This document shows, piece after piece, positions 18,125 through 23,192 of a stretch of DNA of 43,602 nucleotides. The translations under genes were made by a program, and so were the position numbers. The notes below the pieces were generated by a model. That model was not told the DNA's origin. It searched no databases and worked only from the letters and a program-made list of their open reading frames with translations. Within the stretch, counting starts at the first letter, position 1, and the number at the start of each line of letters is the position of its first letter. Source of the DNA: Longimicrobium sp. (lineage in GTDB: Bacteria > Gemmatimonadota > Gemmatimonadetes > Longimicrobiales > Longimicrobiaceae); contig DASVTZ010000083.1 of the NCBI GenBank assembly GCA_036387335.1, positions 1 through 43,602 of the forward strand, in the 5' to 3' direction.

Positions 18125-18990
18125 GCATCTTCATCGACAACGACACGCGCCTGGTGGTGCAGGGGATCACGGGCCGCGACGGCTCGTTCCACACCAAGCA
18201 GATGATGGAGTACGGCACGAAAGTCGTGGCCGGCGTGACGCCCGGTAAGGGCGGGCAGAAGTTCGAGGGGCAGGTGCCCATCTTCAACACCGTCGCCGAG
18301 GCGGTGAAGGAAGGCGGCGCCAACACCTCCGTCATCTACGTGCCCCCGGCTTTCGCCGCGGACGCGATGTTCGAGGCCGCCGACGCAGGGATCGACTTCA
18401 TCGTCTGCATCACCGAGGGCGTGCCGGTGCTGGACATGACCCGCGTGCGGCCCTACGTCCTCGAACAGGGCGCGCGGCTCCTGGGCCCCAACTGCCCCGG
18501 CCTCCTTTCGGCCGGCAAGAGCAAGGTGGGGATCATCCCGGGCCACATCACGCAGCCGGGTCCGGTCGGCCTCGTCTCCAAGAGCGGGACGCTGACCTAC
18601 GAGGTCGTGTACAAGCTCAAGGGCGCGGGGATCGGCACCACGACGTGCGTGGGAATCGGCGGCGACCCGATCAACGGCACTTCGTTCATCGACTGCATCG
18701 CGGCGTTCGAGGCGGACCCGGAGACGAAGGCGATCGTGATGCTGGGCGAGATCGGCGGGACGGACGAGCAGGAAGCCGCCGCCTACATCAAAGCCAACGT
18801 CACCAAGCCGGTGGTGGGCTTCATCGCCGGGCAGACGGCGCCTCCGGGGCGGCGCATGGGGCACGCCGGGGCCATCATCAGCGGCTCGGCAGGGACCGCC
18901 GAGGAGAAGATCCAGGCGTTCCGCGACAACGGCATCGGCGTGGCGAAGCGCCCCGTGGACGTCGTGGGGCTCATCCAGGAGGTACTCTGA
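18121..18990 (+). CDS. sucD: succinate-CoA ligase (ADP-forming), alpha subunit
   Basis: A protein of 289 residues, GTG start overlapping the sucC stop. The CoA-binding Rossmann domain shows [20 protein letters not shown]. The ligase domain has [20 protein letters not shown] and [16 protein letters not shown]. The phospho-histidine loop near the C-terminus is [20 protein letters not shown], where His is phosphorylated. Length and motifs are complete. It ends 5 nt before the EIIA-CBS gene, so the three may be one operon. Confidence 0.96.
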
Positions 18991-18995
18991 GCCCC

Positions 18996-19895
18996 ATGGC
19001 TCGTGAAGGGGGGCGCGAGGTGCGGCTGACGGAGATCCTCCGCCCCGCGCACGTCGTCGCCCCCCTTGCGGCCTCAACGGTGCACGAGGCGGTATCCCAG
19101 CTCGCGCGCCGCCTGATCGAAACGGGGGACGTGGCGCAGCCGGAGCGATTGGAGCGCCTCTTCACCGACCAGCACGTGCGGGACCTGATCCACATCGGCG
19201 GGCGGGTGCTGCTGCCGCACCTGCGCACGGAGGCGGTGGAGCGGCTGGTGGTGGCGCTGGGGGTGACTCCGACGCCGCTCCGCATCAGCGCCGACGATCC
19301 CAGCGGCGACGCGCAGGTGATGGTGCTGGTGCTCGCCCCGCCCGCCGCCGCGGACCCGTACCTCCAGACGGTGGCCTCGCTGGCCCGCGCCCTTCGCGAC
19401 GACGCCACGGTGGACCACCTGGTGGCGGCGCGCAGCGCGGAGGAGGTGCTGGCGATTCCGGAGATCCTCGCCATCACCATCCAGCCGCGCCTGACGGTCA
19501 AGGACGTGATGACGCAGCGCGTCTACCGCGTCTCGCCGGACGACAGCGTGCAGGAGGTGCTGGCCCTGGTCCGCGAGCACCACCTCAGCGCGATCCCGGT
19601 GGTGGGGGAGGGCAGGGAAGTGCTGGGGATGGTCACCGACCGCGACCTCCTGCGCCACTTCCTCCCCGGCGTGCAGAGCCGCGCCGTGAGCCCCTCTCCC
19701 GAGGAGATCCGCACCCTCCGCGTGCGCGACGTGATGTCGCGCTCCGTGATCTGCGTCTCCGAGGACCAGGCCCTCGCCGAGGTCACCTCCATCATGGTCT
19801 CCAAGGACCTGGAGCGACTGCCGGTTACGAACGAGGGCAAGCTGACGGGGTTTCTGACGCGGGGGGATATACTTCGCAAGTTGTTTGCATTCTGA
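18996..19895 (+). CDS. PTS EIIA-like domain fused to two CBS domains
   Basis: A protein of 299 residues. Residues about 11-160 resemble the fructose/nitrogen-type PTS EIIA domain: LTEILRPAHVV at the start and a candidate phospho-acceptor His75 in GGRVLLPHLRTEA, corresponding to the A-I-P-H-G site of EIIA-Ntr. Two CBS domains follow (166-222, VKDVMTQRVYRVSPDDSVQE..., and 244-298, VRDVMSRSVICVSEDQALAE...), which usually bind adenylates. The fusion suggests a sensor that joins phosphotransfer state with energy charge. The start 5 nt after sucD implies a link with the TCA cycle. Target unknown; the phosphorylation role rests on one conserved His. Confidence 0.8.
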   Translation: MAREGGREVRLTEILRPAHVVAPLAASTVHEAVSQLARRLIETGDVAQPERLERLFTDQHVRDLIHIGGRVLLPHLRTEAVERLVVALGVTPTPLRISADDPSGDAQVMVLVLAPPAAADPYLQTVASLARALRDDATVDHLVAARSAEEVLAIPEILAITIQPRLTVKDVMTQRVYRVSPDDSVQEVLALVREHHLSAIPVVGEGREVLGMVTDRDLLRHFLPGVQSRAVSPSPEEIRTLRVRDVMSRSVICVSEDQALAEVTSIMVSKDLERLPVTNEGKLTGFLTRGDILRKLFAF

Positions 19896-21169: not shown

Positions 21170-21210
21170 TGAGGGCTGGGACACGTCTACGTGGCCCAGC
21201 CCTCTTGTTT
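21170..21210 (+). terminator. Rho-independent terminator
   Basis: GAGGGCTGGG and CCCAGCCCTC form a perfect 10-bp stem, followed by TTGTTT. Confidence 0.88.
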
Positions 21211-21303
21211 GCCACTCCGAAGGCGCAGTGGTATAGTAGTTGTAGGGTAGTTGTGTGTTGCTTGTAGGTATTAGGCCCTGTGATTGCCGGTCCACTACAA
21301 CTA
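21209..21303 (+). promoter_or_regulatory. promoter and inverted-repeat operator of the antitoxin-like gene
   Basis: TTGCCA (21209-21214), a 17-nt spacer and TATAGT (21232-21237) make a good promoter directly after a terminator. TAGTTGTAG (21237-21245) overlaps the -10 and start site; its perfect reverse complement CTACAACTA lies at 21295-21303, and another TAGTTGTG half-site lies at 21249. This is the layout of an autoregulated toxin-antitoxin promoter. Operator function is inference from symmetry. Confidence 0.65.
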
Positions 21304-21314
21304 TGGTGTGCTTT

Positions 21315-22301
21315 ATGTCCGCTTCAGCCGTCTACGAGCTCCCGGTGGTGGGTCATCGAACGCCAGAGATCGAGGAGCTCGTAAGCGAGATTCGGCTACG
21401 GATGGCAGGCACATCTGCCCCGCCGGTGCGCAGGCCGAGGGCAAACCGGTCGCCGCAAGCACACAGCGACTTCGATCGGGGCGCTTCGCCATCGCATCCA
21501 CGGGTGGAGCCTGGATTCGACCTCGACCTGGTCGTACTCGTGAACACTCTGAAGGAAGAGGGAAGCTCCACGCCCGGCGAGGTGACGCGGCTGGTCCACA
21601 AAGCCCGCACCCAGAAGCCGGAGCGAAGCGTGGTGGTGCTGCTCGACGAAGAGGATGCGGAGGCAGTGCGCGCCGCTCGCATAGCGGGAGCATTCGACTT
21701 CCTGGGGGCGGACGAGATCAGGAACGTCGAGGCTGTTTTCTGGCGCTTGCACAACGCGACGCTCCTGGCGCGCGTGTTTGCCTCGGACGAGGCTTCGGCA
21801 CCAGAGACGCCGAAGACGGTTCGCCCCCTGACGGTGCGCAGATCGGTGCGACTGAGCGCGGCCCGGATCCGCGAGGCGGACGCGGCGATCGAGGCGGCGG
21901 TTGCTTCTCTGCCGGCCGCGGAAGAGCGGCGCGCCCGTTCCGCGGACCTGCTGAAGGTGATCACCCCCGAGTTCCGCGACGCGCAGTCTGGCAGGTTGGA
22001 CGCCCGCAGAATCGCTGAAGACATGGAGATGTCCATCGCCGCGCTGGCGCGCGCGGCAGGCGTATCGCAGCAGGCGCTGTCGTCGAAGCCGGACTCGCCC
22101 GCCGCACAGGCGGGCCTGCTGCCGGTCGCGCGGCTCTCGAGCGTCCTGAATCAGCTGTTCGTGCCCGAGCACAAACGCGTCTGGCTGCAGACCCCGCATC
22201 CTCGCTTTGGAGACCGGAGCCCGATTCAGGCCATCGAAGCCGGTGAGGCGGAGCTGGTGCTCCTCAGCGTGGAGAGTGCGCAGGACGGGAGCCCTGACTG
22301 A
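21315..22301 (+). CDS. antitoxin-like protein: receiver-like + Xre HTH + MbcA/ParS domain
   Basis: A protein of 328 residues from the ATG at 21315; GTG 21255 and ATG 21303 are alternatives and none has a ribosome-binding site. After a Pro/Arg-rich N-terminus, residues about 68-153 have the strand pattern of a response-regulator receiver: DLDLVVLVNTLKEEG, SVVVLLDEEDAEAVRAARIAGAFDFLGADEI. The Asp expected at the phosphosite appears as N or L, so it looks like a pseudo-receiver. A helical stretch (180-225) follows. Then come an Xre-type helix-turn-helix (about 225-260, IAEDMEMSIAALARAAGVSQ) and the C-terminal toxin-binding domain typical of MbcA/ParS/Xre antitoxins (LSSVLNQLFVPEHKRVWLQT..., SPIQAIEAGEAELVLLSVE). 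The stop overlaps the next start (TGATG). The receiver-like N-terminus is not part of the usual architecture. Confidence 0.78.
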   Translation: MSASAVYELPVVGHRTPEIEELVSEIRLRMAGTSAPPVRRPRANRSPQAHSDFDRGASPSHPRVEPGFDLDLVVLVNTLKEEGSSTPGEVTRLVHKARTQKPERSVVVLLDEEDAEAVRAARIAGAFDFLGADEIRNVEAVFWRLHNATLLARVFASDEASAPETPKTVRPLTVRRSVRLSAARIREADAAIEAAVASLPAAEERRARSADLLKVITPEFRDAQSGRLDARRIAEDMEMSIAALARAAGVSQQALSSKPDSPAAQAGLLPVARLSSVLNQLFVPEHKRVWLQTPHPRFGDRSPIQAIEAGEAELVLLSVESAQDGSPD

Positions 22302-22542
22302 TGCCTCCAGCCGGACCGCTGACGCCGGAGCAGCGAGCGCAGCGGAGCCTGGCCCGCAAGATCGCACGCGCCCCGCTTGAAGAGATCGAGGCGACGCTGT
22401 GCCGCGCCATTCGCGAGGCCCATCTCCGAAGTGATCCTCCCCAGCCCCTGTACTACGACGGCACGTGGGGGTGGACGATCGCGTCCAGGCATACGACACC
22501 ACGGGGAAGCTCTCGCAGCGGCTCGGCCCCTCTGCGCGGTAG
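22301..22542 (+). pseudogene. small coupled ORF with apparent frameshift (unknown partner protein)
   Basis: The ATG at 22301 overlaps the stop of the antitoxin-like gene, so the frame should be translated with it. It reads MPPAGPLTPEQRAQRSLARK... to ...PLYYDGTWGW at 22474, then turns into Ser/Arg/Pro-rich noise that would run into the next promoter and gene. A one-base shift near 22472-22475 (in GGGGGTGG) restores a protein-like end, DDRVQAYDTTGKLSQRLGPSAR, stopping at 22540-22542. The intact product would have about 80 residues. It shows no RES-domain motif and no family I know. Possible explanations are a sequencing error, a genuine mutation or programmed frameshifting. Confidence 0.55.
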
Positions 22543-22682: not shown

Positions 22683-23192
22683 ATGTTGAAGCTGAACCTG
22701 GCGGCGATGGACCGCGAAGAAGTGGAGATCCACGAGCAGGTGGCGGCCGACGATCCCATGTGGGAAGGGTCGGACGTGCGGCTGGTGGAGCCTCTGCGAG
22801 TGGACCTTACCGCCCGCTCCGTGGGCGACGACGGCGTTCTGCTCCGCGGCCGCATCCAGGCGGTGGTGGAGCGCGAGTGCCGCCGCTGCCTCACTGCCGT
22901 CCGCCAGCCGGTGGACGACACGGTGGACCTGTTCTTCGCTCCCATCGGCGAGGACGAAGACGAGCTGGGGGGTGAAGTCTACCCCATGCCGGCGCGCGGG
23001 CAGGAGCTGGACGTGACCGAAGCGGTCCGCGAGCAGCTCCTCCTGCGTGCCCCACAGTACGTCGTGTGCGACGAGGCGTGCCGCGGGCTCTGCCCGCAGT
23101 GCGGCACCAACCTCAACGAAGCGGCGTGCGACTGCGTTTCCGAAGTGGCCCCGAGCCCGTGGGACGCGTTGAAGCAGGTAAAGTTCGACTAA
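22683..23192 (+). CDS. yceD: YceD/DUF177 family protein (23S rRNA accumulation-type)
   Basis: A protein of 169 residues. It starts MLKLNLAAMDREEVEIHEQ, the usual N-terminus of this family, which supports the ATG at 22683 despite the lack of a leader; ATG 22707 is an alternative. The central motif VVERECRRCLTAVRQPVDD has the conserved Cys pair (66, 69). The C-terminal cysteine cluster (129, 133, 137, 140, 149, 151; CDEACRGLCPQCGTNLNEA) is the family signature. YceD proteins are encoded immediately before rpmF in most bacteria and are linked to ribosome/23S rRNA homeostasis. The same arrangement occurs here, 24 nt before rpmF. Confidence 0.9.
   Translation: MLKLNLAAMDREEVEIHEQVAADDPMWEGSDVRLVEPLRVDLTARSVGDDGVLLRGRIQAVVERECRRCLTAVRQPVDDTVDLFFAPIGEDEDELGGEVYPMPARGQELDVTEAVREQLLLRAPQYVVCDEACRGLCPQCGTNLNEAACDCVSEVAPSPWDALKQVKFD

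Follow-up and report, generated by a model that had tools for sequence, protein, structure and literature searches.

We have identified in Longimicrobium sp. what is very probably the remnant of a RES/Xre type II toxin-antitoxin module, akin to ParST, MbcTA and NatRT, in which a receiver-like (CheY-fold) domain forms the N-terminal part of the antitoxin. The module lies in the window (the whole 43,602-nucleotide stretch of DNA that was analyzed), where a 406-bp deletion appears to have removed the catalytic core of the toxin, thus leaving an orphan and probably autorepressing antitoxin. The locus is a case of a toxin lost and its antitoxin kept. Its features are as follows, with the basis of each assignment in brackets.

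21209..21237 (+): sigma-70-like promoter, TTGCCA-17-TATAGT (10 of 12 pattern matches; kept in the sister genome G013)
21227..21268 (+): three imperfect direct repeats, candidate operator (repeat search; analogy with other xre-res loci)
21237..21303 (no strand): perfect 9-bp inverted repeat, TAGTTGTAG / CTACAACTA (repeat search)
21315..22301 (+): receiver-like/Xre/ParS antitoxin gene, 328 aa (ORF, Pfam, comparison with G013)
21330..21788 (+): degenerate receiver-like domain, residues ~6-158, moderate confidence, with Asn77 (AF2, VIA-align, profile-profile comparison)
21960..22298 (+): HTH and MbcA/ParS toxin-binding domain, residues ~216-328 (Pfam, profile matches, structure)
22301..22461 (+): 5' remnant of the RES toxin gene, its start overlapping the antitoxin stop (collinear with the G013 RES region)
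22461..22462 (+): junction of the 406-bp deletion relative to G013, with R, E and S removed (breakpoint +/- a few bases)
22462..22542 (+): 3' remnant of the RES gene in a different frame, reading VDDRVQAYDTTGKLSQRLGPSAR and then a stop (comparison with G013)

The promoter is the single sigma-70-like site within 1.6 kb, for which shuffled sequences lead one to expect 0.1, and G013 retains it as TTGGCA-17-TATATT. The arms of the inverted repeat occupy 21237-21245 and 21295-21303, and the direct copies, with 11-bp spacing, lie over and just past the -10 element, so that both kinds of repeat surround the expected transcription start of the antitoxin gene. The promoter with inverted operator-like repeats that the first-pass annotation described is therefore present. 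The direct repeats are the candidate operator, as other xre-res loci are autoregulated by an HTH that represses its own promoter (PMC12204516). The ATG at 21315 was preferred as the start codon because an upstream in-frame ATG at 21303 is absent from G013. The stop codon (TGA, 22299-22301) overlaps the following ATG, at 22301, as TGATG.

The C-terminal half of the protein is an Xre/MbcA/ParS antitoxin, with a toxin-binding domain and an Xre-type helix-turn-helix. The Pfam family Xre_MbcA_ParS_C (PF09722, COG5642) matches residues 285-315 (3.7e-5); the protein-level score of 24.1 bits falls just short of the 24.5-bit cut-off, and the same locus scores 26.7 bits, above that cut-off, in the genome-wide search. 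The NCBIfam Xre_ParS match is below its cut-off. A ten-member family profile recovers the solved antitoxin chains MbcA (2.8e-5), NatR, Xre and ParS. The AF2 model has pLDDT > 90 across residues ~221-320, and VIA-align matches residues 223-328 to NatR (Z 12.3, rmsd 2.6) and to MbcA (Z 10.1). The helix-turn-helix is seen in structure, nearly the whole NatR chain aligning from residue 223; the match to HTH_3 by sequence only is weak (0.05). The assignment of this C-terminus to the MbcA/ParS/Xre domain made at first reading thus stands.

The N-terminal half has the alternating beta-alpha order of a CheY fold, which we assign with moderate confidence on the strength of the relatives and the AF2 model. 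The predicted elements are b1 (residues 11-13), a1 (17-31), b3 (72-76), a3 (87-100), b4 (105-109), a4 (115-123), b5 (128-130) and a5 (134-158); residues ~32-70 are of low confidence and strand 2 is not formed. The model, built on a 10-sequence alignment, is itself moderate in this domain (pLDDT ~54-83, pTM 0.40). VIA-align places receivers on residues 6-159, the top match being the CheY-like domain of TadZ (4lda, Z 9.4), closely followed by CosR and KdpE, and the rows shown, antitoxin chains aside, are all receivers or receiver-like domains. As a test independent of the AF2 model, six family members were compared by profile, over their N-terminal regions, with receivers of the same genome (an alignment that excludes L114, an off-frame row); the two profiles align end to end with a probability of 95.6% (E 1e-8), while 100 column shuffles give at most 1.4% and the C-terminal block gives 0.1%. 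The window sequence alone yields a probability of just 2-4%, yet it is aligned in register; by itself it is too degenerate to score as a receiver, and the window protein has no match to Pfam Response_reg up to E 10. The first-pass annotation had placed a receiver without its phosphosite Asp at residues about 68-153. A receiver fold is indeed predicted, the stretch is real and the Asp is absent, but the domain begins earlier, with strand 1 and helix 1 at residues 11-31.

Asn77 occupies the phosphosite position, right after strand 3, and the conserved Lys after strand 5 is missing as read from the sequence. Judged by these two residues, the window member is not a phosphorylatable receiver; lacking the Asp, it is unlikely to be phosphorylated. 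Among relatives, the phosphosite position holds Asn in L053 and Asp in L063, G198 and L057. The conserved Lys was not found in the family members read, none of which has all the canonical receiver residues. The Acidobacteriota member L057 combines a Pfam Response_reg match (5.6e-9) with ParS_C in one protein; its Asp is kept and its receiver is cut short after strand 4.

The combination of domains recurs. Scans of 395 phylum genomes and the GTDB contig set, combined with a family search, gave eight loci with a receiver-like domain and a ParS_C antitoxin domain in Gemmatimonadota, Acidobacteriota and Verrucomicrobiota: the window, G013, G009 (= L058), G046 (= L053), G264 (= L063), G198, L057 (Acidobacteriota) and L062 (Verrucomicrobiota). 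The two domains are kept together in these homologues, and a RES gene or its remnant lies directly 3' of the antitoxin in all eight full receiver-like loci. The RES domain is uninterrupted in five (G013, L053, L057, L062 and L063; the L057 neighbor matches at 1.6e-15) and broken in three (by the deletion in the window, a frameshift in G009 and an in-frame stop in G198), so antitoxins of the receiver-like group have often outlasted a decaying toxin. The two other broken genes are at L003:842-1473 (-) (G009) and L038:698-1450 (-) (G198). With the window protein alone as query, no close relative was found in the genome contig set; a six-member alignment as query retrieved twelve loci there. Viral contigs gave no relatives, and plasmid relatives covered the C-terminal domain alone. 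The Polyangia locus L064 has a receiver fragment alone, with no RES seen.

It is possible, although we consider it rather unlikely, that the antitoxin is of the ordinary RES/Xre kind and its N-terminal region the dead, neutral relic of a receiver, without a regulatory role. Asn77, the missing Lys, the low-confidence strand 2 region and the incomplete canonical residues throughout the members read are what a relic would look like, and five relatives (L054, L056, L059, L060 and L061) share the HTH/ParS domain and do without a receiver. Against this, the domain recurs in three phyla, with its Asp sometimes kept (L057, L063 and G198), and it is conserved: between the window and G013, whose antitoxins are 89% identical, the receiver-like domain has a dN/dS of 0.08-0.13 and the HTH and ParS region one of 0.09, versus 0.6 for residues 1-66, an estimate from two genomes that is blind to whether constraint outlasted toxin loss. 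The recurring architecture and the purifying selection together make a function for the domain likely. A tree of the short HTH/ParS domain has weak supports and fits either one or several gains of the receiver.

We regard the receiver-fused antitoxin as a variant of the RES/Xre systems and not a new kind of system. It shares the HTH and MbcA/ParS antitoxin fold with ParST, MbcTA, NatRT, Xre-RES of P. putida, VPA0770-0769 and GndRX. As in those systems, the relatives have a RES partner bearing R, E and S immediately downstream, and promoter repeats are present here too. It differs in its extra receiver-like domain, which makes the receiver-like antitoxins longer (229-399 aa) than the solved chains (72-149 aa), and, in the window, in a toxin without its catalytic core. 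The CheY-like domain of TadZ/CpaE and CosR are atypical receivers without the canonical phosphorylation residues. These are among the best structural matches of residues 6-159, and the window domain likewise misses such residues; unlike them, it does not form strand 2 in the model, and its fusion partner is a ParS toxin-binding domain, whereas theirs is an ATPase or a DNA-binding domain of the OmpR type. There is also similarity to canonical response regulators (Pfam Response_reg): receivers from the same genome align with the family profile over its whole length, and L057 matches the Pfam family. The window member differs in its phosphosite Asn and in lacking the conserved Lys. We found no report of a receiver-fused ParS antitoxin in the open-access literature on receivers and antitoxins or in key RES-Xre papers. 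No histidine kinase was identified adjoining the loci, whose neighbors were viewed unsystematically, and two antitoxins and two RES partners scanned with PADLOC matched none of its anti-phage models.

RES toxins degrade NAD+, and the C-terminal helix of the antitoxin occludes the RES active site (PMC11535050); by analogy with these solved relatives, members of the present module would neutralize and release an NAD+-degrading toxin. In intact members the adjacent genes, in which the toxin start overlaps or abuts the antitoxin stop, are probably co-transcribed. The antitoxin HTH would bind the repeats at its own promoter and repress it, as its solved relatives suggest (PMC12204516), and the C-terminal helix, by filling the RES active site, would prevent NAD+ breakdown (PMC11535050). 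The receiver-like domain might add a surface for dimerization or for sensing a ligand or partner, and an altered oligomeric state could then shift repression and toxin release. We infer that the domain may in this way sense a signal and gate the antitoxin and its toxin. For the window member, binding of a ligand or protein is more plausible than phosphorylation, as in other atypical receivers. More broadly, we tentatively suggest, as an idea somewhat less probable than its contrary, that these loci form a RES subtype in which release of an NAD+-destroying toxin is tied directly, through the antitoxin receiver, to a cytoplasmic signal (phosphorylation in members with the Asp, a ligand or partner in degenerate ones). 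The activating signals and purpose of RES toxins have been described as unresolved in recent work (PMC11535050). A receiver-like domain within the antitoxin offers a concrete entry point for a signal and hints at how RES toxins might be switched on, and complete members such as L057 (Acidobacteriota), L053 and L063 (both Gemmatimonadota) make signal entry directly testable.

The evidence for toxin loss comes from comparison with G013, in which the next gene, at the equivalent position, encodes a RES-domain protein (1.1e-17). Aligned to it, the window lacks 406 bp between the codons for ...LYYDG and ...VDDRV, and the frame is shifted. The RES domain is named after its arginine, glutamate and serine (PMC2701414); the corresponding R38, E60 and S153 do not vary among seven partner toxins, and the window deletion takes out all of them, which makes the small downstream partner a dead toxin gene. 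No intact RES toxin adjoins the antitoxin in the window, where RES remnants comprise just 22301 to ~22461 plus an out-of-frame tail to 22542. The second ORF noted earlier does overlap the antitoxin stop at TGATG; it is not a gene, as its frame leaves the RES remnant and runs on to 22975 through a DUF177/YceD-like gene (22683-23192), a continuation that is accidental. The partner without a RES motif proposed earlier is thus an ordinary RES gene that has suffered an internal deletion here, while the receiver fusion survives. G013 itself has a C run one base longer that breaks the RES frame after the overlapping ATG and ahead of the domain, so that copy may also be impaired, and the domain is open from an internal GTG. 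A phmmer search of the G013 RES protein against the PDB gave no match at E 1.

Deprived of an active toxin, the orphan antitoxin may serve in autoregulation, may protect in trans from related RES toxins, or may have no role. An anti-addiction function, directed at neutralizing or repressing RES modules elsewhere in its genome, seems to us improbable: there are at least seven such RES-domain loci and a fragment at a contig end, but the loci mostly have their own antitoxins, five of them lying beside a ParS-type antitoxin above the Pfam cut-off. The loci and the fragment are on contigs C105, C186, C203, C153, C81, C41, C253 and C4 (L011-L018). Long putative antitoxins of 249-290 aa precede three RES or RES-like genes elsewhere in this genome (L028:1920-3262, L030:1816-3260 and L031:895-2321), and the N-terminal regions of these antitoxins are perhaps further sensor-like fusions.

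Slightly less probable still is an assembly artefact, with an intact receiver/ParS-RES module in the actual genome. The assembly comprises 265 contigs, the deletion is known from it alone, and the RES domain is uninterrupted in the sister genome; on the other side, the sequences on either side of the junction run collinear with G013 and share no obvious repeat, and the broken RES genes of G009 and G198 make decay plausible in the receiver-like group. That the short ORF instead encodes a functional small protein of a new two-gene signaling or toxin-antitoxin module is highly improbable, since its TGATG overlap and 53 open initial codons belong to a frame that is collinear with the RES gene minus 406 bp and then passes out of register into the next gene, while its tail, read in a different frame, corresponds to the RES C-terminus. 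A novel small partner was accordingly ruled out, and a DUF6285 match of this ORF is at chance level (0.02).

Returning to the remnant RES/Xre module, its setting bears on its history. The same-genus genomes G010 (DUF177 95% identical) and G016 lack the module at this position, ndk and a membrane-protein gene adjoining DUF177-rpmF-plsX there, which implies that it came or went in one piece. Elsewhere in the window, an ORF at 18645-19895 resembles a fusion of a PTS IIA-type domain with two CBS domains. A plasmid of Opitutaceae bacterium TAV5 (CP007054.1; L102:1105-2480) encodes a 265-aa ParS-like antitoxin relative and a RES protein (OPIT5_00340/00335), both annotated as hypothetical proteins. 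Two antitoxin relatives that have neither a receiver nor a recognizable RES neighbor (L041:1165-1836 and L042:1342-1863) are followed by a possible secreted-type protein and are possibly domesticated orphan antitoxins.
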